Made by a program: the position numbers and the translations under genes. A stretch of 64,000 nucleotides of DNA, taken from positions 744,001 to 808,000 of the forward strand of contig JBBELK010000053.1 of the NCBI GenBank assembly GCA_037783545.1, given 5' to 3'. Below the pieces are notes generated by a model, which worked only from the letters and a program-made list of their open reading frames with translations, did not search any database and had not been told where the DNA came from. The first letter of the stretch is position 1. Each line of letters begins with the position of its first letter. Below, one piece after another: positions 16,870 to 45,845 of this stretch. Origin of the DNA: Henricia sp. BOLD:AAB3569. Its lineage: Eukaryota > Echinodermata > Asteroidea > Spinulosida > Echinasteridae.

Positions 16870-16882
16870 ACGTGGCATGGTA

Positions 16883-17162: not shown

Positions 17163-17175
17163 ACGTGGCATGGTA

Positions 17176-17412: not shown

Positions 17413-17440
17413 AATCAGGATAACAATCCAACAAACATGG

Positions 17441-19550: not shown

Positions 19551-19710
19551 ATACAGGACAAGGCACTGATCGACAACCACTCTGGAAACGCCTTCAAAAC
19601 AGTTCCGCTGGTCCAGGTGTACCTGTGATTGATACGGTTCAGCAATGCGCGAGATGAGCTAACCTCCTGAATCGCACGTCTCAAAACGGCCCTAGAAGTG
19701 CTGGTTCTAA
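19551..19710 (+). repeat. Inner right inverted-repeat segment
   Basis: About 19640-19710 pairs with the inner left segment (17330-17412), including CCTCCTGAATCGC, the complement of GCGATTCAGGAGG. About 19551-19635 next to the minisatellite is unique to this arm and holds no ORF or motif that I recognise. Confidence 0.65.
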
Positions 19711-20066
19711 GGGGGCATTTCTGGCAGAGTGGCGCACCCTGCCTTAGAGGCTCTTATGAAGGCTGGTGCAGTTAGCCTTGAAAGGAGAGGTGTTCACACA
19801 CATTACTGGCTGATAAAACGTGTTACATCCCTCAACCTCCTCGATTTTTCAGTAAGAAAGTTCTGATTAGAACCGCATATGTACAAAACAATGTCAATTT
19901 TGCTAATTTTGTTGTAACATTCACAGGGTGACTCAGAGCAATTTTCAGGATTGTCAACATGTGTTTTGGGGTTCCTCAGGCTCCTCTCGACCAATCTAAA
20001 GTGGTAGTTTGCTTTCACCACAAAATTCCCACGGGGGCCTATTTTGTTGCACATGCTCCCCGACTA
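19711..20066 (-). repeat. Right terminal inverted repeat of the DNA transposon
   Basis: The reverse complement aligns with 16190-16533. The perfect 49-bp block is at 19987-20035. It has about 12 bp more than the left arm just inside the end (ACAAAATAGGCC region) and further small indels. It abuts the duplicated TAT at 20067-20069. Confidence 0.85.
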
Positions 20067-20912
20067 TATAGAGTTGTTTTAGCAGACAAAATTTGAAGTT
20101 TGTCTGGACATTCCTTCAGTTCCAAAATAGCGACCACTTCAAACGCAATGTTTCCCGAAAGCGGCGTCTGCTTGTGCGAAAACTGTGCCCGCAAGGAGTT
20201 TTTGCTAGATTCGACGATAACTCGGTCGGTTTAAACGGGAAATTGCTGAAATTTGCAGAACACGTTTGCGATATAGAGTTGTTTTAGCAGACAAAATTTG
20301 AAGTTTGTCTGAAAATTCGTTAAGTTCCAAAATAGCGACCACTTCAGACGCAATGTTTCCCGAAAGCGGCGTCTGTTTGTGCGAAAACTGTTCCGGCAGA
20401 GAGTTTTTGCTAGATTCGACGATAACTCGGTCGGTTTAAACGGGAAATTGCTGAAATTTGCAGAACACGTTTGGGATATAGAGTTGTTTTAGCAGACAAA
20501 ATTTGAAGTTTGTTTGGAAATTCCTTCAGTTCCAAAATAGCGACCACTTCAGACGCAATGTTTCCCGAAAGCGGCGTCTGCTTGTGCAAAAACTGTGCCG
20601 GCAAGGAGTTTTTGCTAGATTCGACGATAACTCGGTTGGTTTAAACGGGAAATTGCTGAAATTCGCAGAACACGTTTGGGATATAGAGTTGTTTTAGCAG
20701 ACAAAATTTGAAGTTTGTCTGGACATTCCTTCAGTTCCAAAATAGCGACCACTTCAAACGCAATGTTTCCCGAAAGCGGCGTCTGCTTGTGCGAAAACTG
20801 TGCCCGCAAGGAGTTTTTGTTAGATTCGACGATAACTCGGTCGGTTTAAACGGGAAATTGCTGAAATTTGCAGAACACGTTTGCGATATAGAGTTGTTTT
20901 AGCAGACAAAAT

Positions 20913-23900
20913 TTGAAGTTTGTCTGGAAATTCGTTAAGTTCCAAAATAGCGACCACTTCAGACGCAATGTTTCCCGAAAGCGGCGTCTGTTTGTGCGAA
21001 AACTGTTCCGGCAGAGAGTTTTTGCTAGATTCGACGATAACTCGGTCGGTTTAAACAGGGAAATTGCTGAAATCTGCAGAACACGTTTGCGATATAGAGT
21101 TGTTTTAGCAGACAAAATTTGAAGTTTGTCTGGACATTCCTTCAGTTCCAAAATAGCGACCACTTCAGACGCAATGTTTCCCGAAAGCGGCGTCTGCTTG
21201 TGCAAAAACTGTGCCGGCAAGGAGTTTTTGCTAGATTCGACGATAACTCGGTTGGTTTAAACGGGAAATTGCTGAAATTCGCAGAACACGTTTGGGATAT
21301 AGAGTTGTTTTAGCAGACAAAATTTGAAGTTTGTCTGGACATTCCTTCAGTTGCAAAATGGCGACCACTTCAGACGCAATGTTTCCCGAAAGCGGCGTCT
21401 GTTTGTGCGAAAACTGTTCCGGCAGAGAGTTTTTGCTAGATTCGACGATAACTCGGTCGGTTTAAACGGGAAATTGCTGAAATTTGCAGAACACGTTTGC
21501 GATATAGAGTTGTTTTAGCAGACAAAATTTGAAGTTTGTCTGGAAATTCGTTAAGTTCCAAAATAACGACCACTTCAGACGCAATGTTTCCCGAAAGCGG
21601 CGTCTGCTTGTGCAAAAACTGTGCCGGCAAGGAGTTTTTGCTAGATTCGACGATAACTCGGTTGGTTTAAACGGGAAATTGCTGAAATTCGCAGAACACG
21701 TTTGCGATATAGAGTTGTTTTAGCAGACAAAATTTGAAGTATGTCTGGACATTCCTTCAGTTCCAAAATGGCGACCACTTCAGACTCAATGTTTACCGAA
21801 AGCGGCGTCTGCTTGTGCGAAAACTGTGCCGGCAAAGAGTTTTTGCTAGATTCGACGATAACTCGGTTGGTTTAAACGGGAAATTGCTGAAATTTGCAGA
21901 ACACGTTTGCGATTATAGAGTTGTTTTAGCAGACAAAATTTGAAGTTTGTCTGGACATTCCTTCAGTTCCAAAATGGCGACCACTTCAGACGCAATGTTT
22001 CCCGAAAGCGGCGTCTGTTTGTGCGAAAACTGTTCCGGCAGTGAGTTTTTGCTAGATTCGACGATAACTCGGTCGGTTTAAACGTGAAATTGCTGAAATT
22101 TGCAGAACACGTTTGCGATATAGAGTTGTTTTAGCAGACAAAATTTGAAGTTTGTCTGGACATTCCTTCAGTTCCAAAATGGCGACCACTTCAGACGCAA
22201 TGTTTCCCGAAAGCGGCGTCTGTTTGTGCGAAAACTGTTCCGGCAGAGAGTTTTTGCTAGATTCGACGATAACTCGGTCGGTTTAAACGGGAAATTGCTG
22301 AAATTTGCAGAACACGTTTGCGATATAGAGTTGTTTTAGCAGACAAAATTTGAAGTTTGTCTGGAAATTCGTTAAGTTCCAAAATAACGACCACTTCAGA
22401 CGCAATGTTTCCCGAAAGCGGCGTCTGCTTGTGCAAAAACTGTGCCGGCAAGGAGTTTTTGCTAGATTCGACGATAACTCGGTTGGTTTAAACGGGAAAT
22501 TGCTGAAATTCGCAGAACACGTTTGCGATATAGAGTTGTTTTAGCAGACAAAATTTGAAGTTTGTCTGGACATTCCTTCAGTTCCAAAATAGCGACAACT
22601 TCAAACGCAATGTTTACCGAAAGCGGCGTCTGCTTGTGCGAAAACTGTGCCGGCAAGGAGTTTTTGCTAGATTCGACGATAACTCGGTCGGTTTAAACGG
22701 GAAATTGCTGAAATTTGCAGAACACGTTTGCGATATAGAGTTGTTTTAGCAGACAAAATTTGAAGTTTGTCTGGACATTCCTTCAGTTCCAAAATGGCGA
22801 CCACTTCAGACTCAATGTTTACCGAAAGCGGCGTCTGGTTGTGCGAAAACTGTTCCGGCAGTGAGTTTTTGCTAGATTCGACGATAACTCGGTCGGTTTA
22901 AACGTGAAATTGCTGAAATTTGCAGAACACGTTTGCGATATAGAGTTGTTTTAGCAGACAAAATTTGAAGTTTGTCTGGAAATTCGTTAAGTTCCAAAAT
23001 AGCGACCACTTCAGACGCAATGTTTCCCGAAAGCGGCGTCTGTTTGTGTGAAAACTGTTCCGGCAGAGAGTTTTTGCTAGATTCGACGATAACTCGGTCG
23101 GTTTAAACGGGAAATTGCTGAAATTTGCAGAACACGTTTGCGATATAGAGTTGTTTTAGCAGACAAAATTTGAAGTTTGTCTGGAAATTCGTTAAGTTGT
23201 GCCGGCAGGGAGTTTTTGCTAGCTTCGACGATAACTCGGTCGGTTTAAACGGGAAATTGCTGAAATTTGCAGAACACGTTTGGGATATAGAGTTGTTTTA
23301 GCAGACAAAATTTGAAGTTTGTCTGGACATTCCTTCAGTTCCAAAATGGCGACCACTTCAGACGCAATGTTTCCCGAAAGCGGCGTCTGTTTGTGCGAAA
23401 ACTGTTCCGGCAGTGAGTTTTTGCTAGATTCGACGATAACTCGGTCGGTTTAAACGGAAAATTGCTGAAATTTGCAGAACACGTTTGCGATATAGAGTTG
23501 TTTTAGCAGACAAAATTTGAAGTTTGTCTGGAAATTCGTTAAGTTCCAAAATAGCGACCACTTCAGACGCAATGTTTCCCGAAAGCGGCGTCTGTTTGTG
23601 CGAAAACTGTTCCGGCAGTGAGTTTTTGCTAGATTCGACGATAACTCGGTCGGTTTAAACGGAAAATTGCTGAAATTTGCAGAACACGTTTGCGATATAG
23701 AGTTGTTTTAGCAGACAAAATTTGAAGTTTGTCTGGAAATTCGTTAAGTTCCAAAATAGCGACCACTTCAGACGCAATGTTTCCCGAAAGCGGCGTCTGC
23801 TTGTGCAAAAACTGTGCCGGCAAGGAGTTTTTGCTAGATTCGACGATAACTCGGTTGGTTTAAACGGGAAATTGCTGAAATTCGCAGAACACGTTTGGGA

Positions 23901-25448
23901 TATAGAGTTGTTTTAGCAGACAAAATTTGAAGTTTGTCTGGACATTCCTTCAGTTCCAAAATAGCGACCACTTCAAACGCAATGTTTCCCGAAAGCGGCG
24001 TCTGCTTGTGCGAAAACTGTGCCCGCAAGGAGTTTTTGCTAGATTCGACGATAACTCGGTCGGTTTAAACGGGAAATTGCTGAAATTTGCAGAACACGTT
24101 TGCGATATAGAGTTGTTTTAGCAGACAAAATTTGAAGTTTGTCTGGAAATTCGTTAAGTTCCAAAATAGCGACCACTTCAGACGCAATGTTTCCCGAAAG
24201 CGGCGTCTGTTTGTGCGAAAACTGTTCCGGCAGAGAGTTTTTGCTAGATTCGACGATAACTCGGTCGGTTTAAACGGGAAATTGCTGAAATTTGCAGAAC
24301 ACGTTTGCGATATAGAGTTGTTTTAGCAGACAAAATTTGAAGTTTGTCTGGAAATTCGTTAAGTTCCAAAATAGCGACCACTTCAGACGCAATGTTTCCC
24401 GAAAGCGGCGTCTGCTTGTCCGAAAAATTGCTGAAATTTGCAGAACACGTTTGGGATATAGAGTTGTTTTAGCAGACAAAATTTGAAGTTTGTCTGGAAA
24501 TTCCTTCAGTTCCAAAATGGCGACCACTTCAGACGCAATGTTTCCCGAAAGCGGCGTCTGTTTGTGCGAAAACTGTTCCGGCAGAGAGTTTTTGCTAGAT
24601 TCGACGATAACTCGGTCGGTTTAAACGGGAAATTGCTGAAATTTGCAGAACACGTTTGCGATATAGAGTTGTTTTAGCAGACAAAATTTGAAGTTTGTCT
24701 GGAAATTCGTTAAGTTCCAAAATAGCGACCACTTCAGACGCAATGTTTCCCGAAAGCGGCGTCTGCTTGTCCGAAAAATTGCTGAAATTTGCAGAACACG
24801 TTTGGGATATAGAGTTGTTTTAGCAGACAAAATTTGAAGTTTGTCTGGAAATTCCTTCAGTTCCAAAATAGGGACCACTTCAGACGCAATGTTTACCGAA
24901 AGCGGCGTCTGCTTGTGCGAAAACTGTGCCGGCAAAGAGTTTTTGCTAGATTCGACGATAACTCGGTCGGTTTAAACGGGAAATTGCTGAAATTTGCAGA
25001 ACACGTTTGCGATATAGAGTTGTTTTAGCAGACAAAATTTGAAGTTTGTCTGGAAATTCGTTAAGTTCCAAAATGGCGACCACTTCAGACGCAATGTTTC
25101 CCGAAAGCGGCGTCTGCTTGTGCAAAAACTGTGCCGGCAAGGAGTTTTTGCTAGCTTCGACGATAACTCGGTTGGTTTAAACGGGAAATTGCTGAATTTT
25201 GCAGAACACGTTTGGGATATAGAGTTGTTTTAGCAGACAAAATTTGAAGTTTGTCTGGACATTCCTTCAGTTCCAAAATGGCGACCACTTCAGACGCAAT
25301 GTTTCCCGAAGGCGGCGTCTGTTTGTGCGAAAACTGTTCCGGCAGTGAGTTTTTGCTAGATTCGACGATAACTCGGTCGGTTTAAACGGGAAATTGCTGA
25401 ATTTTGCAGAACACGTTTGCGATATAGAGTTGTTTTAGCAGACAAAAT
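20913..25448 (+). repeat. 4,536-bp higher-order module, copy 1
   Basis: Order: H I J K L M J K N L/M O P Q R S E U V W V X Y Z. The chimeric L/M monomer is at 22760-22964. The two V monomers (146 bp) are at 24337-24482 and 24688-24833. Private changes include TTGCAAAATGG near 21352 and GTCTGGTTG near 22836; its I monomer has CCTTCAG where the other copies have CGTTAAG. Confidence 0.85.
24337..24482 (+). repeat. Deleted satellite monomer type V (146 bp)
   Basis: A 59-bp deletion joins GTCTGCTTGTCCG to AAAAATTGCTG, removing the usual GCCGGCA...GTTTAAAC part including the palindrome. The same junction is found in 16 complete copies, beginning at 24337, 24688, 25654, 26415, 34638, 34989, 41019, 41370, 42336, 43097, 50364, 51125, 59965, 61893, 62244 and 63005. 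Most are followed by a W or X monomer, so it too was amplified as part of larger units. Confidence 0.9.
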
Positions 25449-28343
25449 TTGAAGTTTGTCTGGAAATTCGTTAAGTTCCAAAATAGCGACCACTTCAGAC
25501 GCAATGTTTCCCGAAAGCGGCGTCTGCTTGTGCAAAAACTGTGCCGGCAAGGAGTTTTTGCTAGATTCGACGATAACTCGGTTGGTTTAAACGGGAAATT
25601 GCTGAAATTCGCGGAACACGTTTGGGATATAGAGTTGTTTTAGCAGACAAAATTTGAAGTTTGTCTGGAAATTCGTTAAGTTCCAAAATAGCGACCACTT
25701 CAGACGCAATGTTTCCCGAAAGCGGCGTCTGCTTGTCCGAAAAATTGCTGAAATTTGCAGAACACGTTTGGGATATAGAGTTGTTTTAGCAGACAAAATT
25801 TGAAGTTTGTCTGGAAATTCCTTCAGTTCCAAAATAGGGACCACTTCAGACGCAATGTTTACCGAAAGCGGCGTCTGCTTGTGCGAAAACTGTGCCGGCA
25901 AAGAGTTTTTGCTAGATTCGACGATAACTCGGTCGGTTTAAACGGGAAATTGCTGAAATTTGCAGAACACGTTTGCGATATAGAGTTGTTTTAGCAGACA
26001 AAATTTGAAGTTTGTCTGGAAATTCGTTAAGTTCCAAAATAGCGACCACTTCAGACGCAATGTTTCCCGAAAGCGGCGTCTGCTTGTGCAAAAACTGTGC
26101 CGGCAAGGAGTTTTTGCTAGATTCGACGATAACTCGGTTGGTTTAAACGGGAAATTGCTGAAATTTGCAGAACACGTTTGCGATATAGAGTTGTTTTAGC
26201 AGACAAAATTTGAAGTTTGTCTGGAAATTCGTTAAGTTCCAAAATAGCGACCACTTCAGACGCAATGTTTCCCGAAAGCGGCGTCTGCTTGTGCAAAAAC
26301 TGTGCCGGCAAGGAGTTTTTGCTAGATTCGACGATAACTCGGTTGGTTTAAACGGGAAATTGCTGAAATTCGCGGAACACGTTTGGGATATAGAGTTGTT
26401 TTAGCAGACAAAATTTGAAGTTTGTCTGGAAATTCGTTAAGTTCCAAAATAGCGACCACTTCAGACGCAATGTTTCCCGAAAGCGGCGTCTGCTTGTCCG
26501 AAAAATTGCTGAAATTTGCAGAACACGTTTGGGATATAGAGTTGTTTTAGCAGACAAAATTTGAAGTTTGTCTGGAAATTCCTTCAGTTCCAAAATAGGG
26601 ACCACTTCAGACGCAATGTTTACCGAAAGCGGCGTCTGCTTGTGCGAAAACTGTGCCGGCAAAGAGTTTTTGCTAGATTCGACGATAACTCGGTCGGTTT
26701 AAACGGGAAATTGCTGAAATTTGCAGAACACGTTTGCGATATAGAGTTGTTTTAGCAGACAAAATTTGAAGTTTGTCTGGAAATTCGTTAAGTTCCAAAA
26801 TAGCGACCACTTCAGACGCAATGTTTCCCGAAAGCGGCGTCTGCTTGTGCAAAAACTCTGCCGGCAAAGAGTTTTTGCTAGATTCGACGATAACTCGGTC
26901 GGTTTAAACGGGAAATTGCTGAAATTTGCAGAACACGTTTGCGATTATAGAGTTGTTTTAGCAGACAAAATTTGAAGTTTGTCTGGACATTCCTTCAGTT
27001 CCAAAATGGCGACCACTTCAGACGCAATGTTTCCCGAAAGCGGCGTCTGTTTGTGCGAAAACTGTTCCGGCAGTGAGTTTTTGCTAGATTCGACGATAAC
27101 TCGGTCGGTTTAAACGTGAAATTGCTGAAATTTGCAGAACACGTTTGCGATATAGAGTTGTTTTAGCAGACAAAATTTGAAGTTTGTCTGGAAATTCGTT
27201 AAGTTCCAAAATAGCGACCACTTCAGACGCAATGTTTCCCGAAAGCGGCGTCTGTTTGTGTGAAAACTGTTCCGGCAGAGAGTTTTTGCTAGATTCGACG
27301 ATAACTCGGTCGGTTTAAACGGGAAATTGCTGAAATTTGCAGAACACGTTTGCGATATAGAGTTGTTTTAGCAGACAAAATTTGAAGTTTGTCTGGAAAT
27401 TCGTTAAGTTGTGCCGGCAGGGAGTTTTTGCTAGCTTCGACGATAACTCGGTCGGTTTAAACGGGAAATTGCTGAAATTTGCAGAACACGTTTGGGATAT
27501 AGAGTTGTTTTAGCAGACAAAATTTGAAGTTTGTCTGGACATTCCTTCAGTTCCAAAATGGCGACCACTTCAGACGCAATGTTTCCCGAAAGCGGCGTCT
27601 GTTTGTGCGAAAACTGTTCCGGCAGTGAGTTTTTGCTAGATTCGACGATAACTCGGTCGGTTTAAACGGAAAATTGCTGAAATTTGCAGAACACGTTTGC
27701 GATATAGAGTTGTTTTAGCAGACAAAATTTGAAGTTTGTCTGGAAATTCGTTAAGTTCCAAAATAGCGACCACTTCAGACGCAATGTTTCCCGAAAGCGG
27801 CGTCTGTTTGTGCGAAAACTGTTCCGGCAGTGAGTTTTTGCTAGATTCGACGATAACTCGGTCGGTTTAAACGGAAAATTGCTGAAATTTGCAGAACACG
27901 TTTGCGATATAGAGTTGTTTTAGCAGACAAAATTTGAAGTTTGTCTGGAAATTCGTTAAGTTCCAAAATAGCGACCACTTCAGACGCAATGTTTCCCGAA
28001 AGCGGCGTCTGCTTGTGCAAAAACTGTGCCGGCAAGGAGTTTTTGCTAGATTCGACGATAACTCGGTTGGTTTAAACGGGAAATTGCTGAAATTCGCAGA
28101 ACACGTTTGGGATATAGAGTTGTTTTAGCAGACAAAATTTGAAGTTTGTCTGGACATTCCTTCAGTTCCAAAATAGCGACCACTTCAAACGCAATGTTTC
28201 CCGAAAGCGGCGTCTGCTTGTGCGAAAACTGTGCCCGCAAGGAGTTTTTGCTAGATTCGACGATAACTCGGTCGGTTTAAACGGGAAATTGCTGAAATTT
28301 GCAGAACACGTTTGCGATATAGAGTTGTTTTAGCAGACAAAAT
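25449..28343 (+). repeat. 2,895-bp extension of the higher-order module, copy 1
   Basis: Order: S V X S S V X S M O P Q R S E. It follows directly on the 4,536-bp module, so 20913-28343 forms one 7,431-bp unit that recurs at 37595-45025. Within it the V X S S subunit is 761 bp long (X at 25800 and 26561). Confidence 0.82.
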
Positions 28344-28548
28344 TTGAAGTTTGTCTGGACATTCCTTCAGTTCCAAAATAGCGACAACTTCAAACGCAAT
28401 GTTTACCGAAAGCGGCGTCTGCTTGTGCGAAAACTGTGCCGGCAAGGAGTTTTTGCTAGATTCGACGATAACTCGGTCGGTTTAAACGGGAAATTGCTGA
28501 AATTTGCAGAACACGTTTGGGATATAGAGTTGTTTTAGCAGACAAAAT

Positions 28549-31213
28549 TTGAAGTTTGTTTGGAAATTCCTTCAGTTCCAAAATAGCGACCACTTCAGAC
28601 GCAATGTTTCCCGAAAGCGGCGTCTGTTTGTGCGAAAAATGTTCCGGCAGAGAGTTTTTGCTAGATTCGACGATAACTCGGTCGGTTTAAACGGGAAATT
28701 GCTGAAATTTGCAGAACACGTTTGGGATATAGAGTTGTTTTAGCAGACAAATTTTGAAGTTTGTCTGGACATTCCTTTAGTTCCAAAATGGCGACCACTT
28801 CGGACGCAATGTTTCCCGAAAGCGGCGTCTGTTTGTGCGAAAACTGTTCCGGCAGTGAGTTTTTGCTAGATTCGACGATAACTCGGTCGGTTTAAACGGG
28901 AAATTGCTGATATTTGCAGAACACGTTTGCGATATAGAGTTGTTTTAGCAGACAAAATTTGAAGTTTGTCTGGACATTCCTTCAGTTCCAAAATAGCGAC
29001 AACTTCAAACGCAATGTTTACCGAAAGCGGCGTCTGCTTGTGCGAAAACTGTGCCGGCAAGGAGTTTTTGCTAGATTCGACGATAACTCGGTCGGTTTAA
29101 ACGGGAAATTGCTGAAATTTGCAGAACACGTTTGGGATATAGAGTTGTTTTAGCAGACAAAATTTGAAGTTTGTTTGGAAATTCCTTCAGTTCCAAAATA
29201 GCGACCACTTCAGACGCAATGTTTCCCGAAAGCGGCGTCTGCTTGTGCAAAAACTGTGCCGGCAAGGAGTTTTTGCTAGATTCGACGATAACTCGGTCGG
29301 TTTAAACGGGAAATTGCTGATATTTGCAGAACACGTTTGCGATATAGAGTTGTTTTAGCAGACAAAATTTGAAGTTTGTCTGGACATTCCTTCAGTTCCA
29401 AAATAGCGACAACTTCAAACGCAATGTTTACCGAAAGCGGCGTCTGCTTGTGCGAAAACTGTGCCGGCAAGGAGTTTTTGCTAGATTCGACGATAACTCG
29501 GTTGGTTTAAACGGGAAATTGCTGAAATTTGCAGAACACGTTTGGGATATAGAGTTGTTTTAGCAGACAAAATTTGAAGTTTGTCTGGACATTCTTTCAG
29601 TTCCAAAATAGCGACCACTTCAGACGCAATGTTTCCCGAAAGCGGCGTCTGTTTGTGCGAAAAATGTTCCGGCAGAGAGTTTTTGCTAGATTCGACGATA
29701 ACTCGGTCGGTTTAAACGGGAAATTGCTGAAATTTGCAGAACACGTTTGGGATATAGAGTTGTTTTAGCAGACAAAATTTGAAGTTTGTTTGGAAATTCC
29801 TTCAGTTCCAAAATAGCGACCACTTCAGACGCAATGTTTACCGAAAGCGGCGTCTGCTTGTGCGAAAACTGTGCCGGCAAGGAGTTTTTGCTAGATTCGA
29901 CGATAACTCGGTCGGTTTAAACGGGAAATTGCTGAAATTTGCAGAACACGTTTGGGATATAGAGTTGTTTTAGCAGACAAAATTTGAAGTTTGTTTGGAA
30001 ATTCCTTCAGTTCCAAAATAGCGACCACTTCAGACGCAATGTTTCCCGAAAGCGGCGTCTGCTTGTGCAAAAACTGTGCCGGCAAGGAGTTTTTGCTAGA
30101 TTCGACGATAACTCGGTCGGTTTAAACGGGAAATTGCTGAAATTTGCAGAACACGTTTGGGATATAGAGTTGTTTTAGCAGACAAAATTTGAAGTTTGTT
30201 TGGAAATTCCTTCAGTTCCAAAATAGCGACCACTTCAGACGCAATGTTTCCCGAAAGCGGCGTCTGCTTGTGCAAAAACTGTGCCGGCAAGGAGTTTTTG
30301 CTAGATTCGACGATAACTCGGTCGGTTTAAACGGGAAATTGCTGATATTTGCAGAACACGTTTGCGATATAGAGTTGTTTTAGCAGACAAAATTTGAAGT
30401 TTGTCTGGACATTCCTTCAGTTCCAAAATAGCGACAACTTCAAACGCAATGTTTACCGAAAGCGGCGTCTGCTTGTGCGAAAACTGTGCCGGCAAGGAGT
30501 TTTTGCTAGATTCGACGATAACTCGGTTGGTTTAAACGGGAAATTGCTGAAATTTGCAGAACACGTTTGGGATATAGAGTTGTTTTAGCAGACAAAATTT
30601 GAAGTTTGTCTGGACATTCCTTCAGTTCCAAAATAGCGACCACTTCAGACGCAATGTTTCCCGAAAGCGGCGTCTGTTTGTGCGAAAAATGTTCCGGCAG
30701 AGAGTTTTTGCTAGATTCGACGATAACTCGGTCGGTTTAAACGGGAAATTGCTGAAATTTGCAGAACACGTTTGGGATATAGAGTTGTTTTAGCAGACAA
30801 AATTTGAAGTTTGTTTGGAAATTCCTTCAGTTCCAAAATAGCGACCACTTCAGACGCAATGTTTACCGAAAGCGGCGTCTGCTTGTGCGAAAACTGTGCC
30901 GGCAAGGAGTTTTTGCTAGATTCGACGATAACTCGGTCGGTTTAAACGGGAAATTGCTGAAATTTGCAGAACACGTTTGGGATATAGAGTTGTTTTAGCA
31001 GACAAAATTTGAAGTTTGTTTGGAAATTCCTTCAGTTCCAAAATAGCGACCACTTCAGACGCAATGTTTCCCGAAAGCGGCGTCTGCTTGTGCAAAAACT
31101 GTGCCGGCAAGGAGTTTTTGCTAGATTCGACGATAACTCGGTCGGTTTAAACGGGAAATTGCTGAAATTTGCAGAACACGTTTGCGATATAGAGTTGTTT
31201 TAGCAGACAAAAT
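28549..31213 (+). repeat. 1,025-bp five-monomer repeats, second locus
   Basis: A' T N C2 N (28549-29573), A B C1 C2 N (29574-30598), then A B C3, which leads into an H monomer at 31214. The first two units match those at 9038 and 12113 in type and order. At 13138 and 15393 the A B C3 triplet leads to D instead of H. Confidence 0.8.
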
Positions 31214-34200: not shown

Positions 34201-35749
34201 ATATAGAGTTGTTTTAGCAGACAAAATTTGAAGTTTGTCTGGACATTCCTTCAGTTCCAAAATAGCGACCACTTCAAACGCAATGTTTCCCGAAAGCGGC
34301 GTCTGCTTGTGCGAAAACTGTGCCCGCAAGGAGTTTTTGCTAGATTCGACGATAACTCGGTCGGTTTAAACGGGAAATTGCTGAAATTTGCAGAACACGT
34401 TTGCGATATAGAGTTGTTTTAGCAGACAAAATTTGAAGTTTGTCTGGAAATTCGTTAAGTTCCAAAATAGCGACCACTTCAGACGCAATGTTTCCCGAAA
34501 GCGGCGTCTGTTTGTGCGAAAACTGTTCCGGCAGAGAGTTTTTGCTAGATTCGACGATAACTCGGTCGGTTTAAACGGGAAATTGCTGAAATTTGCAGAA
34601 CACGTTTGCGATATAGAGTTGTTTTAGCAGACAAAATTTGAAGTTTGTCTGGAAATTCGTTAAGTTCCAAAATAGCGACCACTTCAGACGCAATGTTTCC
34701 CGAAAGCGGCGTCTGCTTGTCCGAAAAATTGCTGAAATTTGCAGAACACGTTTGGGATATAGAGTTGTTTTAGCAGACAAAATTTGAAGTTTGTCTGGAA
34801 ATTCCTTCAGTTCCAAAATGGCCACCACTTCAGACGCAATGTTTCCCGAAAGCGGCGTCTGTTTGTGCGAAAACTGTTCCGGCAGAGAGTTTTTGCTAGA
34901 TTCGACGATAACTCGGTCGGTTTAAACGGGAAATTGCTGAAATTTGCAGAACACGTTTGCGATATAGAGTTGTTTTAGCAGACAAAATTTGAAGTTTGTC
35001 TGGAAATTCGTTAAGTTCCAAAATAGCGACCACTTCAGACGCAATGTTTCCCGAAAGCGGCGTCTGCTTGTCCGAAAAATTGCTGAAATTTGCAGAACAC
35101 GTTTGGGATATAGAGTTGTTTTAGCAGACAAAATTTGAAGTTTGTCTGGAAATTCCTTCAGTTCCAAAATAGGGACCACTTCAGACGCAATGTTTACCGA
35201 AAGCGGCGTCTGCTTGTGCGAAAACTGTGCCGGCAAAGAGTTTTTGCTAGATTCGACGATAACTCGGTCGGTTTAAACGGGAAATTGCTGAAATTTGCAG
35301 AACACGTTTGCGATATAGAGTTGTTTTAGCAGACAAAATTTGAAGTTTGTCTGGAAATTCGTTAAGTTCCAAAATGGCGACCACTTCAGACGCAATGTTT
35401 CCCGAAAGCGGCGTCTGCTTGTGCAAAAACTGTGCCGGCAAGGAGTTTTTGCTAGCTTCGACGATAACTCGGTTGGTTTAAACGGGAAATTGCTGAATTT
35501 TGCAGAACACGTTTGGGATATAGAGTTGTTTTAGCAGACAAAATTTGAAGTTTGTCTGGACATTCCTTCAGTTCCAAAATGGCGACCACTTCAGACGCAA
35601 TGTTTCCCGAAGGCGGCGTCTGTTTGTGCGAAAACTGTTCCGGCAGTGAGTTTTTGCTAGATTCGACGATAACTCGGTCGGTTTAAACGGGAAATTGCTG
35701 AAATTTGCAGAACACGTTTGCGATATAGAGTTGTTTTAGCAGACAAAAT
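31214..35749 (+). repeat. 4,536-bp higher-order module, copy 2
   Basis: The same monomer order and exact length as 20913-25448. It is followed not by the 2,895-bp extension but by a chimeric monomer (35750-35954: S-like first part, N-like second part) and then A' B C1 C2 N A B C3. The distance to the next copy is therefore only 6,381 bp. It has a private change at AAATGGCCACC near 34821. Confidence 0.85.
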
Positions 35750-37594
35750 TTGAAGTTTGTCTGGAAATTCGTTAAGTTCCAAAATAGCGACCACTTCAAA
35801 CGCAATGTTTACCGAAAGCGGCGTCTGCTTGTGCGAAAACTGTGCCGGCAAGGAGTTTTTGCTAGATTCGACGATAACTCGGTCGGTTTAAACGGGAAAT
35901 TGCTGAAATTTGCAGAACACGTTTGGGATATAGAGTTGTTTTAGCAGACAAAATTTGAAGTTTGTTTGGAAATTCCTTCAGTTCCAAAATAGCGACCACT
36001 TCAGACGCAATGTTTCCCGAAAGCGGCGTCTGTTTGTGCGAAAAATGTTCCGGCAGAGAGTTTTTGCTAGATTCGACGATAACTCGGTCGGTTTAAACGG
36101 GAAATTGCTGAAATTTGCAGAACACGTTTGGGATATAGAGTTGTTTTAGCAGAAAAAATTTGAAGTTTGTTTGGAAATTCCTTCAGTTCCAAAATAGCGA
36201 CCACTTCAGACGCAATGTTTACCGAAAGCGGCGTCTGCTTGTGCGAAAACTGTGCCGGCAAGGAGTTTTTGCTAGATTCGACGATAACTCGGTCGGTTTA
36301 AACGGGAAATTGCTGAAATTTGCAGAACACGTTTGGGATATAGAGTTGTTTTAGCAGACAAAATTTGAAGTTTGTTTGGAAATTCCTTCAGTTCCAAAAT
36401 AGCGACCACTTCAGACGCAATGTTTCCCGAAAGCGGCGTCTGCTTGTGCAAAAACTGTGCCGGCAAGGAGTTTTTGCTAGATTCGACGATAACTCGGTCG
36501 GTTTAAACGGGAAATTGCTGAAATTTGCAGAACACGTTTGGGATATAGAGTTGTTTTAGCAGACAAAATTTGAAGTTTGTTTGGAAATTCCTTCAGTTCC
36601 AAAATAGCGACCACTTCAGACGCAATGTTTCCCGAAAGCGGCGTCTGCTTGTGCAAAAACTGTGCCGGCAAGGAGTTTTTGCTAGATTCGACGATAACTC
36701 GGTCGGTTTAAACGGGAAATTGCTGATATTTGCAGAACACGTTTGCGATATAGAGTTGTTTTAGCAGACAAAATTTGAAGTTTGTCTGGACATTCCTTCA
36801 GTTCCAAAATAGCGACAACTTCAAACGCAATGTTTACCGAAAGCGGCGTCTGCTTGTGCGAAAACTGTGCCGGCAAGGAGTTTTTGCTAGATTCGACGAT
36901 AACTCGGTTGGTTTAAACGGGAATTTGCTGAAATTTGCAGAACACGTTTGGGATATAGAGTTGTTTTAGCAGACAAAATTTGAAGTTTGTCTGGACATTC
37001 CTTCAGTTCCAAAATAGCGACCACTTCAGACGCAATGTTTCCCGAAAGCGGCGTCTGTTTGTGCGAAAAATGTTCCGGCAGAGAGTTTTTGCTAGATTCG
37101 ACGATAACTCGGTCGGTTTAAACGGGAAATTGCTGAAATTTGCAGAACACGTTTGGGATATAGAGTTGTTTTAGCAGACAAAATTTGAAGTTTGTTTGGA
37201 AATTCCTTCAGTTCCAAAATAGCGACCACTTCAGACGCAATGTTTACCGAAAGCGGCGTCTGCTTGTGCGAAAACTGTGCCGGCAAGGAGTTTTTGCTAG
37301 ATTCGACGATAACTCGGTCGGTTTAAACGGGAAATTGCTGAAATTTGCAGAACACGTTTGGGATATAGAGTTGTTTTAGCAGACAAAATTTGAAGTTTGT
37401 TTGGAAATTCCTTCAGTTCCAAAATAGCGACCACTTCAGACGCAATGTTTCCCGAAAGCGGCGTCTGCTTGTGCAAAAACTGTGCCGGCAAGGAGTTTTT
37501 GCTAGATTCGACGATAACTCGGTCGGTTTAAACGGGAAATTGCTGAAATTTGCAGAACACGTTTGCGATATAGAGTTGTTTTAGCAGACAAAAT

Positions 37595-40500
37595 TTGAAG
37601 TTTGTCTGGAAATTCGTTAAGTTCCAAAATAGCGACCACTTCAGACGCAATGTTTCCCGAAAGCGGCGTCTGTTTGTGCGAAAACTGTTCCGGCAGAGAG
37701 TTTTTGCTAGATTCGACGATAACTCGGTCGGTTTAAACAGGGAAATTGCTGAAATCTGCAGAACACGTTTGCGATATAGAGTTGTTTTAGCAGACAAAAT
37801 TTGAAGTTTGTCTGGACATTCGTTAAGTTCCAAAATAGCGACCACTTCAGACGCAATGTTTCCCGAAAGCGGCGTCTGCTTGTGCAAAAACTGTGCCGGC
37901 AAGGAGTTTTTGCTAGATTCGACGATAACTCGGTTGGTTTAAACGGGAAATTGCTGAAATTCGCAGAACACGTTTGGGATATAGAGTTGTTTTAGCAGAC
38001 AAAATTTGAAGTTTGTCTGGACATTCCTTCAGTTCCAAAATGGCGACCACTTCAGACGCAATGTTTCCCGAAAGCGGCGTCTGTTTGTGCGAAAACTGTT
38101 CCGGCAGAGAGTTTTTGCTAGATTCGACGATAACTCGGTCGGTTTAAACGGGAAATTGCTGAAATTTGCAGAACACGTTTGCGATATAGAGTTGTTTTAG
38201 CAGACAAAATTTGAAGTTTGTCTGGAAATTCGTTAAGTTCCAAAATAACGACCACTTCAGACGCAATGTTTCCCGAAAGCGGCGTCTGCTTGTGCAAAAA
38301 CTGTGCCGGCAAGGAGTTTTTGCTAGATTCGACGATAACTCGGTTGGTTTAAACGGGAAATTGCTGAAATTCGCAGAACACGTTTGCGATATAGAGTTGT
38401 TTTAGCAGACAAAATTTGAAGTATGTCTGGACATTCCTTCAGTTCCAAAATGGCGACCACTTCAGACTCAATGTTTACCGAAAGCGGCGTCTGCTTGTGC
38501 GAAAACTGTGCCGGCAAAGAGTTTTTGCTAGATTCGACGATAACTCGGTTGGTTTAAACGGGAAATTGCTGAAATTTGCAGAACACGTTTGCGATTATAG
38601 AGTTGTTTTAGCAGACAAAATTTGAAGTTTGTCTGGACATTCCTTCAGTTCCAAAATGGCGACCACTTCAGACGCAATGTTTCCCGAAAGCGGCGTCTGT
38701 TTGTGCGAAAACTGTTCCGGCAGTGAGTTTTTGCTAGATTCGACGATAACTCGGTCGGTTTAAACGTGAAATTGCTGAAATTTGCAGAACACGTTTGCGA
38801 TATAGAGTTGTTTTAGCAGACAAAATTTGAAGTTTGTCTGGACATTCCTTCAGTTCCAAAATGGCGACCACTTCAGACGCAATGTTTCCCGAAAGCGGCG
38901 TCTGTTTGTGCGAAAACTGTTCCGGCAGAGAGTTTTTGCTAGATTCGACGATAACTCGGTCGGTTTAAACGGGAAATTGCTGAAATTTGCAGAACACGTT
39001 TGCGATATAGAGTTGTTTTAGCAGACAAAATTTGAAGTTTGTCTGGAAATTCGTTAAGTTCCAAAATAACGACCACTTCAGACGCAATGTTTCCCGAAAG
39101 CGGCGTCTGCTTGTGCAAAAACTGTGCCGGCAAGGAGTTTTTGCTAGATTCGACGATAACTCGGTTGGTTTAAACGGGAAATTGCTGAAATTCGCAGAAC
39201 ACGTTTGCGATATAGAGTTGTTTTAGCAGACAAAATTTGAAGTTTGTCTGGACATTCCTTCAGTTCCAAAATAGCGACAACTTCAAACGCAATGTTTACC
39301 GAAAGCGGCGTCTGCTTGTGCGAAAACTGTGCCGGCAAGGAGTTTTTGCTAGATTCGACGATAACTCGGTCGGTTTAAACGGGAAATTGCTGAAATTTGC
39401 AGAACACGTTTGCGATATAGAGTTGTTTTAGCAGACAAAATTTGAAGTTTGTCTGGACATTCCTTCAGTTCCAAAATGGCGACCACTTCAGACTCAATGT
39501 TTACCGAAAGCGGCGTCTGCTTGTGCGAAAACTGTTCCGGCAGTGAGTTTTTGCTAGATTCGACGATAACTCGGTCGGTTTAAACGTGAAATTGCTGAAA
39601 TTTGCAGAACACGTTTGCGATATAGAGTTGTTTTAGCAGACAAAATTTGAAGTTTGTCTGGAAATTCGTTAAGTTCCAAAATAGCGACCACTTCAGACGC
39701 AATGTTTCCCGAAAGCGGCGTCTGTTTGTGTGAAAACTGTTCCGGCAGAGAGTTTTTGCTAGATTCGACGATAACTCGGTCGGTTTAAACGGGAAATTGC
39801 TGAAATTTGCAGAACACGTTTGCGATATAGAGTTGTTTTAGCAGACAAAATTTGAAGTTTGTCTGGAAATTCGTTAAGTTGTGCCGGCAGGGAGTTTTTG
39901 CTAGCTTCGACGATAACTCGGTCGGTTTAAACGGGAAATTGCTGAAATTTGCAGAACACGTTTGGGATATAGAGTTGTTTTAGCAGACAAAATTTGAAGT
40001 TTGTCTGGACATTCCTTCAGTTCCAAAATGGCGACCACTTCAGACGCAATGTTTCCCGAAAGCGGCGTCTGTTTGTGCAAAAACTGTTCCGGCAGTGAGT
40101 TTTTGCTAGATTCGACGATAACTCGGTCGGTTTAAACGGAAAATTGCTGAAATTTGCAGAACACGTTTGCGATATAGAGTTGTTTTAGCAGACAAAATTT
40201 GAAGTTTGTCTGGAAATTCGTTAAGTTCCAAAATAGCGACCACTTCAGACGCAATGTTTCCCGAAAGCGGCGTCTGTTTGTGCGAAAACTGTTCCGGCAG
40301 TGAGTTTTTGCTAGATTCGACGATAACTCGGTCGGTTTAAACGGAAAATTGCTGAAATTTGCAGAACACGTTTGCGATATAGAGTTGTTTTAGCAGACAA
40401 AATTTGAAGTTTGTCTGGAAATTCGTTAAGTTCCAAAATAGCGACCACTTCAGACGCAATGTTTCCCGAAAGCGGCGTCTGCTTGTGCAAAAACTGTGCC

Positions 40501-42130
40501 GGCAAGGAGTTTTTGCTAGATTCGACGATAACTCGGTTGGTTTAAACGGGAAATTGCTGAAATTCGCAGAACACGTTTGGGATATAGAGTTGTTTTAGCA
40601 GACAAAATTTGAAGTTTGTCTGGACATTCCTTCAGTTCCAAAATAGCGACCACTTCAAACGCAATGTTTCCCGAAAGCGGCGTCTGCTTGTGCGAAAACT
40701 GTGCCCGCAAGGAGTTTTTGCTAGATTCGACGATAACTCGGTCGGTTTAAACGGGAAATTGCTGAAATTTGCAGAACACGTTTGCGATATAGAGTTGTTT
40801 TAGCAGACAAAATTTGAAGTTTGTCTGGAAATTCGTTAAGTTCCAAAATAGCGACCACTTCAGACGCAATGTTTCCCGAAAGCGGCGTCTGTTTGTGCGA
40901 AAACTGTTCCGGCAGAGAGTTTTTGCTAGATTCGACGATAACTCGGTCGGTTTAAACGGGAAATTGCTGAAATTTGCAGAACACGTTTGCGATATAGAGT
41001 TGTTTTAGCAGACAAAATTTGAAGTTTGTCTGGAAATTCGTTAAGTTCCAAAATAGCGACCACTTCAGACGCAATGTTTCCCGAAAGCGGCGTCTGCTTG
41101 TCCGAAAAATTGCTGAAATTTGCAGAACACGTTTGGGATATAGAGTTGTTTTAGCAGACAAAATTTGAAGTTTGTCTGGAAATTCCTTCAGTTCCAAAAT
41201 GGCGACCACTTCAGACGCAATGTTTCCCGAAAGCGGCGTCTGTTTGTGCGAAAACTGTTCCGGCAGAGAGTTTTTGCTAGATTCGACGATAACTCGGTCG
41301 GTTTAAACGGGAAATTGCTGAAATTTGCAGAACACGTTTGCGATATAGAGTTGTTTTAGCAGACAAAATTTGAAGTTTGTCTGGAAATTCGTTAAGTTCC
41401 AAAATAGCGACCACTTCAGACGCAATGTTTCCCGAAAGCGGCGTCTGCTTGTCCGAAAAATTGCTGAAATTTGCAGAACACGTTTGGGATATAGAGTTGT
41501 TTTAGCAGACAAAATTTGAAGTTTGTCTGGAAATTCCTTCAGTTCCAAAATAGGGACCACTTCAGACGCAATGTTTACCGAAAGCGGCGTCTGCTTGTGC
41601 GAAAACTGTGCCGGCAAAGAGTTTTTGCTAGATTCGACGATAACTCGGTCGGTTTAAACGGGAAATTGCTGAAATTTGCAGAACACGTTTGCGATATAGA
41701 GTTGTTTTAGCAGACAAAATTTGAAGTTTGTCTGGAAATTCGTTAAGTTCCAAAATGGCGACCACTTCAGACGCAATGTTTCCCGAAAGCGGCGTCTGCT
41801 TGTGCAAAAACTGTGCCGGCAAGGAGTTTTTGCTAGCTTCGACGATAACTCGGTTGGTTTAAACGGGAAATTGCTGAATTTTGCAGAACACGTTTGGGAT
41901 ATAGAGTTGTTTTAGCAGACAAAATTTGAAGTTTGTCTGGACATTCCTTCAGTTCCAAAATGGCGACCACTTCAGACGCAATGTTTCCCGAAGGCGGCGT
42001 CTGTTTGTGCGAAAACTGTTCCGGCAGTGAGTTTTTGCTAGATTCGACGATAACTCGGTCGGTTTAAACGGGAAATTGCTGAAATTTGCAGAACACGTTT
42101 GCGATATAGAGTTGTTTTAGCAGACAAAAT
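37595..42130 (+). repeat. 4,536-bp higher-order module, copy 3
   Basis: The same order and length as copies 1 and 2. One private base change is visible in the Q monomer near 40078 (GTGCAAAAACTGTTCC). Confidence 0.85.
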
Positions 42131-45025
42131 TTGAAGTTTGTCTGGAAATTCGTTAAGTTCCAAAATAGCGACCACTTCAGACGCAATGTTTCCCGAAAGC
42201 GGCGTCTGCTTGTGCAAAAACTGTGCCGGCAAGGAGTTTTTGCTAGATTCGACGATAACTCGGTTGGTTTAAACGGGAAATTGCTGAAATTCGCGGAACA
42301 CGTTTGGGATATAGAGTTGTTTTAGCAGACAAAATTTGAAGTTTGTCTGGAAATTCGTTAAGTTCCAAAATAGCGACCACTTCAGACGCAATGTTTCCCG
42401 AAAGCGGCGTCTGCTTGTCCGAAAAATTGCTGAAATTTGCAGAACACGTTTGGGATATAGAGTTGTTTTAGCAGACAAAATTTGAAGTTTGTCTGGAAAT
42501 TCCTTCAGTTCCAAAATAGGGACCACTTCAGACGCAATGTTTACCGAAAGCGGCGTCTGCTTGTGCGAAAACTGTGCCGGCAAAGAGTTTTTGCTAGATT
42601 CGACGATAACTCGGTCGGTTTAAACGGGAAATTGCTGAAATTTGCAGAACACGTTTGCGATATAGAGTTGTTTTAGCAGACAAAATTTGAAGTTTGTCTG
42701 GAAATTCGTTAAGTTCCAAAATAGCGACCACTTCAGACGCAATGTTTCCCGAAAGCGGCGTCTGCTTGTGCAAAAACTGTGCCGGCAAGGAGTTTTTGCT
42801 AGATTCGACGATAACTCGGTCGGTTTAAACGGGAAATTGCTGAAATTTGCAGAACACGTTTGCGATATAGAGTTGTTTTAGCAGACAAAATTTGAAGTTT
42901 GTCTGGAAATTCGTTAAGTTCCAAAATAGCGACCACTTCAGACGCAATGTTTCCCGAAAGCGGCGTCTGCTTGTGCAAAAACTGTGCCGGCAAGGAGTTT
43001 TTGCTAGATTCGACGATAACTCGGTTGGTTTAAACGGGAAATTGCTGAAATTCGCGGAACACGTTTGGGATATAGAGTTGTTTTAGCAGACAAAATTTGA
43101 AGTTTGTCTGGAAATTCGTTAAGTTCCAAAATAGCGACCACTTCAGACGCAATGTTTCCCGAAAGCGGCGTCTGCTTGTCCGAAAAATTGCTGAAATTTG
43201 CAGAACACGTTTGGGATATAGAGTTGTTTTAGCAGACAAAATTTGAAGTTTGTCTGGAAATTCCTTCAGTTCCAAAATAGGGACCACTTCAGACGCAATG
43301 TTTACCGAAAGCGGCGTCTGCTTGTGCGAAAACTGTGCCGGCAAAGAGTTTTTGCTAGATTCGACGATAACTCGGTCGGTTTAAACGGGAAATTGCTGAA
43401 ATTTGCAGAACACGTTTGCGATATAGAGTTGTTTTAGCAGACAAAATTTGAAGTTTGTCTGGAAATTCGTTAAGTTCCAAAATAGCGACCACTTCAGACG
43501 CAATGTTTCCCGAAAGCGGCGTCTGCTTGTGCAAAAACTCTGCCGGCAAAGAGTTTTTGCTAGATTCGACGATAACTCGGTCGGTTTAAACGGGAAATTG
43601 CTGAAATTTGCAGAACACGTTTGCGATTATAGAGTTGTTTTAGCAGACAAAATTTGAAGTTTGTCTGGACATTCCTTCAGTTCCAAAATGGCGACCACTT
43701 CAGACGCAATGTTTCCCGAAAGCGGCGTCTGTTTGTGCGAAAACTGTTCCGGCAGTGAGTTTTTGCTAGATTCGACGATAACTCGGTCGGTTTAAACGTG
43801 AAATTGCTGAAATTTGCAGAACACGTTTGCGATATAGAGTTGTTTTAGCAGACAAAATTTGAAGTTTGTCTGGAAATTCGTTAAGTTCCAAAATAGCGAC
43901 CACTTCAGACGCAATGTTTCCCGAAAGCGGCGTCTGTTTGTGTGAAAACTGTTCCGGCAGAGAGTTTTTGCTAGATTCGACGATAACTCGGTCGGTTTAA
44001 ACGGGAAATTGCTGAAATTTGCAGAACACGTTTGCGATATAGAGTTGTTTTAGCAGACAAAATTTGAAGTTTGTCTGGAAATTCGTTAAGTTGTGCCGGC
44101 AGGGAGTTTTTGCTAGCTTCGACGATAACTCGGTCGGTTTAAACGGGAAATTGCTGAAATTTGCAGAACACGTTTGGGATATAGAGTTGTTTTAGCAGAC
44201 AAAATTTGAAGTTTGTCTGGACATTCCTTCAGTTCCAAAATGGCGACCACTTCAGACGCAATGTTTCCCGAAAGCGGCGTCTGTTTGTGCGAAAACTGTT
44301 CCGGCAGTGAGTTTTTGCTAGATTCGACGATAACTCGGTCGGTTTAAACGGAAAATTGCTGAAATTTGCAGAACACGTTTGCGATATAGAGTTGTTTTAG
44401 CAGACAAAATTTGAAGTTTGTCTGGAAATTCGTTAAGTTCCAAAATAGCGACCACTTCAGACGCAATGTTTCCCGAAAGCGGCGTCTGTTTGTGCGAAAA
44501 CTGTTCCGGCAGTGAGTTTTTGCTAGATTCGACGATAACTCGGTCGGTTTAAACGGAAAATTGCTGAAATTTGCAGAACACGTTTGCGATATAGAGTTGT
44601 TTTAGCAGACAAAATTTGAAGTTTGTCTGGAAATTCGTTAAGTTCCAAAATAGCGACCACTTCAGACGCAATGTTTCCCGAAAGCGGCGTCTGCTTGTGC
44701 AAAAACTGTGCCGGCAAGGAGTTTTTGCTAGATTCGACGATAACTCGGTTGGTTTAAACGGGAAATTGCTGAAATTCGCAGAACACGTTTGGGATATAGA
44801 GTTGTTTTAGCAGACAAAATTTGAAGTTTGTCTGGACATTCCTTCAGTTCCAAAATAGCGACCACTTCAAACGCAATGTTTCCCGAAAGCGGCGTCTGCT
44901 TGTGCGAAAACTGTGCCCGCAAGGAGTTTTTGCTAGATTCGACGATAACTCGGTCGGTTTAAACGGGAAATTGCTGAAATTTGCAGAACACGTTTGCGAT
45001 ATAGAGTTGTTTTAGCAGACAAAAT
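42131..45025 (+). repeat. 2,895-bp extension of the higher-order module, copy 2
   Basis: The same order as 25449-28343 (S V X S S V X S M O P Q R S E), with the same length. It completes the second 7,431-bp unit, 16,682 bp from the first. Confidence 0.82.
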
Positions 45026-45845
45026 TTGAAGTTTGTCTGGACATTCCTTCAGTTCCAAAATAGCGACAACTTCAAACGCAATGTTTACCGAAAGCGGCGT
45101 CTGCTTGTGCGAAAACTGTGCCGGCAAGGAGTTTTTGCTAGATTCGACGATAACTCGGTCGGTTTAAACGGGAAATTGCTGATATTTGCAGAACACGTTT
45201 GCGATATAGAGTTGTTTTAGCAGACAAAATTTGAAGTTTGTCTGGACATTCCTTCAGTTCCAAAATAGCGACAACTTCAAACGCAATGTTTACCGAAAGC
45301 GGCGTCTGCTTGTGCGAAAACTGTGCCGGCAAGGAGTTTTTGCTAGATTCGACGATAACTCGGTCGGTTTAAACGGGAAATTGCTGAAATTTGCAGAACA
45401 CGTTTGGGATATAGAGTTGTTTTAGCAGACAAAATTTGAAGTTTGTTTGGAAATTCCTTCAGTTCCAAAATAGCGACCACTTCAGACGCAATGTTTCCCG
45501 AAAGCGGCGTCTGCTTGTGCAAAAACTGTGCCGGCAAGGAGTTTTTGCTAGATTCGACGATAACTCGGTCGGTTTAAACGGGAAATTGCTGATATTTGCA
45601 GAACACGTTTGCGATATAGAGTTGTTTTAGCAGACAAAATTTGAAGTTTGTCTGGACATTCCTTCAGTTCCAAAATAGCGACAACTTCAAACGCAATGTT
45701 TACCGAAAGCGGCGTCTGCTTGTGCGAAAACTGTGCCGGCAAGGAGTTTTTGCTAGATTCGACGATAACTCGGTTGGTTTAAACGGGAAATTGCTGAAAT
45801 TTGCAGAACACGTTTGGGATATAGAGTTGTTTTAGCAGACAAAAT

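Follow-up and report, generated by a model that had tools for sequence, protein, structure and literature searches.

The closest described systems are the cascading superHORs of orangutan alpha satellite, i.e., the 58-mer of the Y chromosome and the 59-mer of chromosome 13 (PMC12428378, PMC11276891), and as far as the excerpted literature reaches, units exceeding 50 monomers are reported for great apes and humans only (the orangutan 58-mer and others, and a human 52-mer). The 205-bp satellite array described here, which lies in a stretch of 64,000 nucleotides that was analyzed as a whole (the window), is best read as a cascading higher-order repeat of the same size as these primate superHORs, with monomers diverging by just 4%. 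Units comprise 57–59 monomers in both systems, monomer types repeat within the unit (44 types in the orangutan 58-mer, 36 distinct slot sequences among 57 slots here, of which 17 occur in two or more slots) and the divergence between copies is 0.25% in both, the value here being the mean for monomers within a slot and that for the orangutan coming from the excerpted part of PMC12428378. In contrast, 46 of 67 orangutan copies are canonical according to the same excerpt, whereas the array in the window is pieced together from fragments and contains a single copy that is nearly complete. Moreover, the orangutan arrays are primate alpha satellite, which has a monomer of 171 bp and a CENP-B box in part of its monomers, whereas the satellite in this window has a 205-bp monomer and no CENP-B box. 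The primate definition of a higher-order repeat, as excerpted from PMC11630843, asks for corresponding monomers less than 5% apart and for 20–40% divergence within the unit; here corresponding monomers are 0.25% apart, but the divergence between 205-bp slots has a mean of 3.95% and a maximum of 7.8%. Among insects, the satellite of Chrysolina carnifex has a similar monomer length (211 bp) and forms higher-order units, but such insect units are dimers or trimers (2–3 monomers) in the excerpted account compared to 57 monomers here (PMC8122249).

The window consists of a tandem array of the 205-bp satellite on one strand, in which 280 monomers were parsed and which is interrupted by two transposable elements. 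The satellite fills positions 3897–64000 except for the DNA transposon, so that the interval 20913–45025, on which the original prediction was centered, is only part of the array, and the presence of satellite at positions 1–43 indicates that the array carries on past the retroelement. The features are as follows.

1–43, plus strand: satellite remnant left of the retroelement
44–3896, minus strand: non-LTR retrotransposon within the satellite, outside the repeat, with an open frame of 1,147 aa at 225–3668
3897–16189, plus strand: satellite array left of the transposon, 205-bp monomer, five segments of the 57-slot unit
16190–20066, no strand assigned: DNA transposon within the satellite, outside the repeat, with long imperfect terminal inverted repeats and an apparent 3-bp target duplication (TAT)
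20067–64000, plus strand: satellite array right of the transposon, 205-bp monomer, thirteen segments of the 57-slot unit
20077–31197, plus strand: the only near-complete run through the unit, 11,121 bp, beginning at slot 16 and ending at slot 14 with 56 of 57 slots covered
20913–25448, plus strand: 4,536-bp module, copy 1
31214–35749, plus strand: 4,536-bp module, copy 2, differing from copy 1 by 6 bases
37595–42130, plus strand: 4,536-bp module, copy 3, differing from copy 1 by 6 bases and from copy 2 by 2
20913–28343, plus strand: 7,431-bp unit, copy 1
37595–45025, plus strand: 7,431-bp unit, copy 2, 7 mismatches to copy 1
37579–45214, plus strand: segment of 39 monomers, slots 20 to 57 followed by slot 1
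54411–58307, plus strand: segment of 19 monomers, slots 6 to 24

Of 281 anchor spacings, 279 measure 205, 206, 146 or 142 bp, one measures 212 bp and one spans the transposon. The opposite strand of the window gave no anchor match, in contrast to the (peri)centromeric satellites of Tribolium madens with their macro-dyad symmetries, which likewise form long arrays of a short satellite but show large-scale inversions in the excerpted description (PMC13081366). No complete reading frame of at least 160 aa overlaps positions 3900–64000, no RNA family reached its gathering score and ARAGORN predicted no tRNA. The nearest named relatives of the retroelement are from sea urchin, so that the DNA probably belongs to a marine animal. 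Two patterns of the transposon gave no match in viral_contigs. For the satellite itself, exact searches with one pattern of 25 and one of 23 bases gave no match in viral_contigs and genome_contigs, and a blastn search with 824 bases gave none in plasmids or phages, which carries little weight because these collections hold viral, bacterial and archaeal sequence. Five monomer fragments used as text queries were not found in the literature, and titles and beginnings of abstracts on 205-bp higher-order satellites, sea urchin and echinoderms revealed no such array.

The original prediction of multi-kilobase higher-order repeats was borne out, and the repetition turned out to be bigger and more coherent than first read. 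The 4,536-bp module is present three times (at 20913, 31214 and 37595) at equal length and without gaps, the 7,431-bp unit occurs twice (at 20913 and 37595), and the proposed sub-periods of 1,025, 761 and 758 bp match with at least 99% over at least one period at 3, 4 and 1 places, respectively. The 280 monomers form 18 pieces of one circular unit of 57 slots and 11,326 bp, with a parse identity of 99.85% (82 edits in 55,914 bp). The number of segments is 18 at jump costs of 8, 12 and 20, and it increases to 21 at a cost of 5 and to 22 at a cost of 3. Each of the 57 canonical adjacencies was observed at least twice; nevertheless, the number 57 is a reconstruction from this window, because just one nearly complete pass is present and the other segments are fragments, and an alternative form of 52 slots, in which slot 14 is joined to slot 20, appears at two joints. 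Other parts of the prediction had to be adjusted. Each of the six landmarks is found 16 bases into a matching monomer, which is of type O (206 bp) in five cases and a 212-bp relative in the case of 48306, and the spacings of the landmarks are in order 11.6 (with the 3,880 bp of the transposon subtracted), 10.3, 6.4, 10.7 and 9.0 kb, which agrees with the lower bound of the proposed range of 6.4–10.7 kb and raises its upper bound to 11.6 kb. The proposed number of about 25 monomer types depends on the cut-off: there are 69 exact sequences, 34 clusters at up to 2 edits (25 of them with at least two members) and 25 clusters at up to 3 edits.

The prediction had been said to fail if monomer clustering showed no recurring order; a recurring order was found, the longest repeated run of types being 22 compared to 3–5 in 200 shuffles. 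Furthermore, the parse score is 346, compared to 1,582 ± 27 for shuffled monomer order (100 shuffles). In a hold-out test the copy at 20077–31197 (56 monomers) was used to predict the order of the other 224 monomers, which resulted in a score of 350 (20 jumps, 190 edits), compared to 1,329 ± 23 when all monomers were shuffled and 784 ± 16 when blocks of three monomers were shuffled (500 shuffles each). This test rules out that the monomer order is due to chance. Within a slot, monomers differ by 0.25% (mean of 501 pairs), and between slots by 3.97%; order beyond chance together with a higher identity between copies than within the unit characterizes a higher-order repeat in the general sense, and the recurrence of monomer types inside the unit makes it a cascading one. 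That the satellite is an ordinary homogeneous one, locally duplicated in a few places, and that the higher order is read into noise might be suspected since the monomers differ by just 4% and the type calls thus rest on some 20 variable sites (22 have a minor base of at least 5%), but the shuffle tests, a hold-out score far outside the shuffle range and the contrast of within-slot and between-slot divergence make this extremely improbable.

The joints between segments suggest how the array was formed. All 16 joints outside the transposon are in monomer register, and the edits are concentrated at the segment ends, with 42 of 82 in 36 end monomers and 40 in the other 244. At 9 of the 16 joints the joint monomer is imperfect, and 7 of these 9 improve if they are taken as the chimeras predicted from out-of-register homologous exchange, whereas for those at 58308 and 60300 the predicted chimera gives no improvement. 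With the predicted donors the total number of edits drops from 33 to 13, compared to 26.0 ± 3.1 with random donors (P = 7.5e-5); the sides tested were picked for being imperfect, and the random-donor control was run on the same sides. The remaining 7 joints, which are without an imperfect monomer, are uninformative on exchange beyond their register. We consider it likely (roughly 85%, a figure that leaves out any centromere role) that the array is a higher-order repeat and that it arose through homologous exchange. About 57 monomers in fixed order (11.3 kb), which go back to nested smaller duplications, would have been copied as a block. Homologous exchange between copies out of alignment, be it unequal crossing-over, gene conversion or break-induced replication, would later have shortened and lengthened the blocks. 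Such exchange would keep the joints in monomer register and homogenize the copies to about 0.25%. The joints are known from the assembly, and simple monomer variation could have been mis-joined into apparent modules; base errors could account for part of the 82 edits. This is improbable given that each of the three 4,536-bp copies carries private bases and that no two of them have the same neighbors on both sides (the left neighbor is common to copies 2 and 3, the right one to copies 1 and 3). The seven joint monomers that fit chimeras of the two expected slots also speak against it, although a mis-join within a shared monomer could mimic some of them.

The monomer length may be related to nucleosome positioning. 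In the tandem monomer, harmonic 20 of the A/T-dinucleotides (10.25 bp) is the strongest, and none of 5,000 shuffles reached its strength; the probability that any A/T harmonic of such strength appears in shuffles is p = 0.005. The test was run only after the peak had been noticed, and because a tandem monomer allows whole-number harmonics only, a count of exactly 20 periods follows in part from the design of the test; a single monomer cut at five places gave fitted periods of 10.17 to 10.42. For GC-dinucleotides the signal is weak (p = 0.04 at harmonic 20; p = 0.13 in the 9.3–10.8 band). The satellite thus has the A/T-dinucleotide period near 10 bp used as a mark of rotational phasing, and a period near 10.25 bp may be taken as a sign of nucleosome rotational phasing, from which we infer that each monomer could set one rotationally phased nucleosome. 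A similar A/T-dinucleotide periodicity of about 10 bp was described for the monomers of maize CentC, a 156-bp centromeric satellite, on which CenH3 nucleosomes were mapped according to the excerpt (PMC3053214), whereas the 205-bp satellite is known here from sequence alone. Three further monomer features were examined. The consensus site that comes closest to a CENP-B box agrees with it at 8 of 9 essential bases (p = 0.055; 0.016 if the full consensus is also counted) and carries T in place of the core C in about 70 monomers; it was rejected as evidence of a box. A protected segment found no support, the widest interval free of variable sites being 40 bp (p = 0.19), and neither did folding of a single-stranded monomer into a hairpin (z = −1.56; 12 of 200 shuffles did as well).

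The original prediction compared the array to centromeric arrays of other animals. This comparison holds for the higher-order structure, but neither for the within-unit divergence of 4% nor for the CENP-B box, of which the satellite contains no site with all nine essential bases on either strand of the window, the sole full match lying in the retroelement (2558–2572), about as expected by chance. The likeness to centromeric arrays is a structural one. The chances that the array is in a (peri)centromeric location are about even, and a kinetochore function is plausible but less likely than not. Nearly as probable as such a location is a heterochromatic satellite that plays no part in the kinetochore, be it in pericentric or subtelomeric position or on a sex or B chromosome; its higher order would be a neutral by-product of unequal exchange. 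This alternative concerns function only and shares its anatomy with the reading preferred here, so that the confidences in the two overlap. It is supported by the directly observed exchange signatures, as unequal exchange alone is enough for higher-order repeats in the Smith model (PMC8997354, as excerpted), and such repeats by themselves are thus no indicator of a centromere. The incomplete CENP-B box, the apparently intact retroelement and the DNA transposon inside the array point the same way. Very low divergence between copies, a monomer of nucleosome scale and a strong A/T period, on the other hand, fit many centromeric satellites in the same excerpt, but these are weak arguments against a satellite without kinetochore role because pericentric satellites can have such features too.

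As a summary, a cascading higher-order repeat, probably produced by homologous exchange, would provide a unit comparable to those of primates in what is probably an invertebrate, with low divergence and readable joints, by which models of satellite evolution, such as unequal exchange versus break-induced replication, would become testable outside primates. Moreover, the 205-bp satellite is a ready probe for locating the centromeres of the source animal. It is conceivable, though rather unlikely, that an invertebrate, probably marine and of or near the echinoderms, has its centromeres on giant cascading higher-order repeats, which would have arisen independently of those of primates. With a monomer of nearly 20 helical periods, rotational nucleosome phasing would be kept in them across monomers in any order. 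If true, satellite exchange under centromere constraint would generally lead to large cascading units, also without CENP-B.

The array in the window consists of a 205-bp satellite arranged in tandem on a single strand; a search with a fuzzy anchor gave 282 sites on the plus strand and 0 on the opposite strand. The 281 spacings between these sites are 205 bp (236), 206 bp (18), 146 bp (16), 142 bp (9), 212 bp (1) and 4,085 bp (1, spanning a DNA transposon). The monomers of 146 and 142 bp have lost 59 and 63 bp internally, with a breakpoint ambiguity of 2 and 1 bp, respectively. Two elements are inserted in the satellite:

44-3896, minus strand: non-LTR retrotransposon whose 1,147-aa frame at 225-3668 is uninterrupted
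16190-20066: DNA transposon of 3.9 kb, in which the terminal inverted repeats are imperfect and about 350 bp long, with an apparent 3-bp duplication, TAT

The type analysis was performed on 280 monomers, leaving out the spacing that spans the transposon and the partial end monomers; together they make up 55,914 bp of the 56,227-bp array to the right of the retroelement.

From the type string of this window, a circular unit of 57 slots, i.e., monomer positions, was written down and the 280 monomers were placed on it by a dynamic programme in which each jump is costed. This resolved the array into 18 segments of a unit of 11,326 bp, with a score of 346 compared to 1,582 ± 27 in 100 shuffles, and slot-specific consensuses fit with 82 edits over 55,914 bp (99.85%). 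The segment number is 18 at jump costs of 8, 12 and 20, rising to 21 at a cost of 5 and 22 at a cost of 3. As the order came from this same window, a hold-out test was made, with the 56 monomers of the pass at 20077-31197, which is nearly complete, as reference and the remaining 224 monomers as test set. The score was 350, compared to 1,329 ± 23 when the order was shuffled 500 times and 784 ± 16 in 500 shuffles keeping three-monomer blocks, and 179 of the 224 test monomers are identical to a monomer of the reference pass. Moreover, all 57 slot adjacencies were found at least twice. Against 57 as the unit size stand the single nearly complete pass and a 52-slot form at two joints, the borders between segments.

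The recurring order is also apparent from the types themselves: the longest repeated run comprises 22 types, compared to 3 to 5 in 200 order shuffles, and the conditional entropy of the type order is 1.33 bits compared to 3.02 ± 0.05 in 500 shuffles. Of the original prediction, the 4,536-bp module in three copies (6, 6 and 2 bases apart), the 7,431-bp unit in two copies (7 bases apart) and the sub-periods of 1,025, 761 and 758 bp were recovered. All six landmarks assigned to one monomer type exist: five are in monomers of type O (206 bp), and the sixth, at 48306, is in a relative of 212 bp. Their spacing after subtraction of the transposon, given as 6.4 to 10.7 kb, holds at the low end and has to be corrected to 11.6 kb at the high end, because subtracting 3,880 bp from 15,505 bp leaves 11,625 bp for the first interval. 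The number of monomer types, put at about 25, varies with the cut-off chosen.

Between 205-bp monomers of the same slot the mean difference is 0.25% (501 pairs), compared to 3.97% between monomers of different slots (27,229 pairs). Forty-two of the 82 edits fall into the 36 segment-end monomers and 40 into the other 244. The spacing table shows that the monomer register is kept at all 16 joints outside the transposon, which is not expected from free end-joining, and at nine of these 16 the joint monomer is imperfect. Misaligned copies exchanging inside a monomer would leave a joint monomer that starts as the left partner's next slot and ends as the slot on the right. Chimeras of these predicted donors reduce the edits from 33 to 13 in total, compared to 26.0 ± 3.1 for random donors (P = 7.5e-5), and improve seven of the nine imperfect joints. 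The joints at 58308 and 60300 show no gain and fit no single exchange of the predicted kind, and are perhaps older or double exchanges; at 50143 the left monomer retains one edit without explanation. The 16 joints represent 15 distinct slot jumps, the jump from slot 14 to 20 being seen twice, probably as a single event passed on by copying. Unequal crossing-over, gene conversion and break-induced replication predict such joints alike, and the data favour none of the three.

Within the transposon no complete ORF reaching 160 aa was found. It contains a degenerate 2-kb minisatellite of CCCAGCCCGAAGC-like units (17440-19550), and the region 18001-20000 has a GC content of 61% and a GC skew of -0.37. 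A further segment (16880-17165) with GGTTCGAATCC and a CAACAACAACAAC tail is presumably SINE-like, GGTTCGAATCC being taken as a tRNA-like B box; neither Rfam nor ARAGORN reported this segment.

The 1,147-aa frame of the retroelement encodes a reverse transcriptase domain; a match to an endonuclease scores under Pfam's cut-off. The 3' end of the element carries short TTGAAA-like repeats and the target duplication is at most 2 bp. Among 7,999 candidates scored, 23 related proteins were found, the best being protein P0001 (53% identity over 86%); the best named relatives are from Strongylocentrotus purpuratus (55% over 37%) and Lytechinus variegatus (40% over 65%), and weaker ones include medaka and stick insect. 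These relatives would suggest a marine animal in or near the echinoderms as the host; mobile elements are, however, poor indicators of origin. The retroelement is apparently intact and therefore perhaps recently active. Residues 137-147 of the frame (3228-3260, minus strand) read CMDISINPGPG, which resembles the NPGP core of ribosome-skipping 2A peptides, but with S replacing the usual E. Such peptides occur in non-LTR elements of marine invertebrates.

For the A/T-dinucleotides of the tandem monomer, the top Fourier component is harmonic 20 of the 205-bp monomer (10.25 bp), with a strength matched at this harmonic by 0 of 5,000 dinucleotide-preserving shuffles and at any harmonic by 0.5%. The GC-dinucleotide version is weak (p = 0.04; 0.13 over the 9.3-10.8 bp band). 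A tandem sequence permits whole-number harmonics only, and a single monomer cut at five places gave fitted periods of 10.17 to 10.42 bp; the 205 bp are therefore close to, but not necessarily exactly, 20 A/T periods. The A/T phase holds along the monomer within about 90 degrees, and the signal peaks in 61-bp windows starting at 120 to 180. Many satellites have an A/T period of about 10 bp favouring rotational phasing of nucleosomes (review, PMC8997354), and in maize CentC nucleosome positions track the A/T-dinucleotide period (PMC3053214); by analogy, the satellite may carry phased nucleosomes. The CENP-B box, a centromere-protein site with nine essential bases, is absent from the satellite (eight of these nine at the best consensus site, p = 0.055), the sole full match in the window sitting in the retroelement. 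It is therefore from its architecture only that we infer a centromere role for the array.

Repeated use of monomer types within a unit is termed a cascading higher-order repeat by the GRMhor authors (PMC11630843), and the 57-slot unit is one in this sense, because 17 of its 36 distinct slot sequences serve more than one slot. Six slots recur at +22, five at +5 and three at +4 slots; these are older duplications inside the unit. Among the matches listed in the open-licence literature, mostly titles and abstract starts, there was no invertebrate unit of comparable size, for which no priority is claimed; the units of an insect example comprise two or three monomers (review, PMC8122249) compared to 57 slots here. 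In monomer number and internal recurrence the unit resembles the orangutan Y 58-mer with 44 monomer types (PMC12428378, which also names an 84-mer and others), the 59-mer of orangutan chromosome 13 (PMC11276891) and the human 52-mer named in the title of PMC12385485. It also shares low divergence between copies with the 58-mer, for which 0.25% is given among canonical copies (46/67). Since its within-unit divergence of 3.95% misses the 20-40% of the primate definition (PMC11630843), one of its numerical criteria, the 57-slot unit of this sea star is a variant of the primate-type large higher-order repeats.
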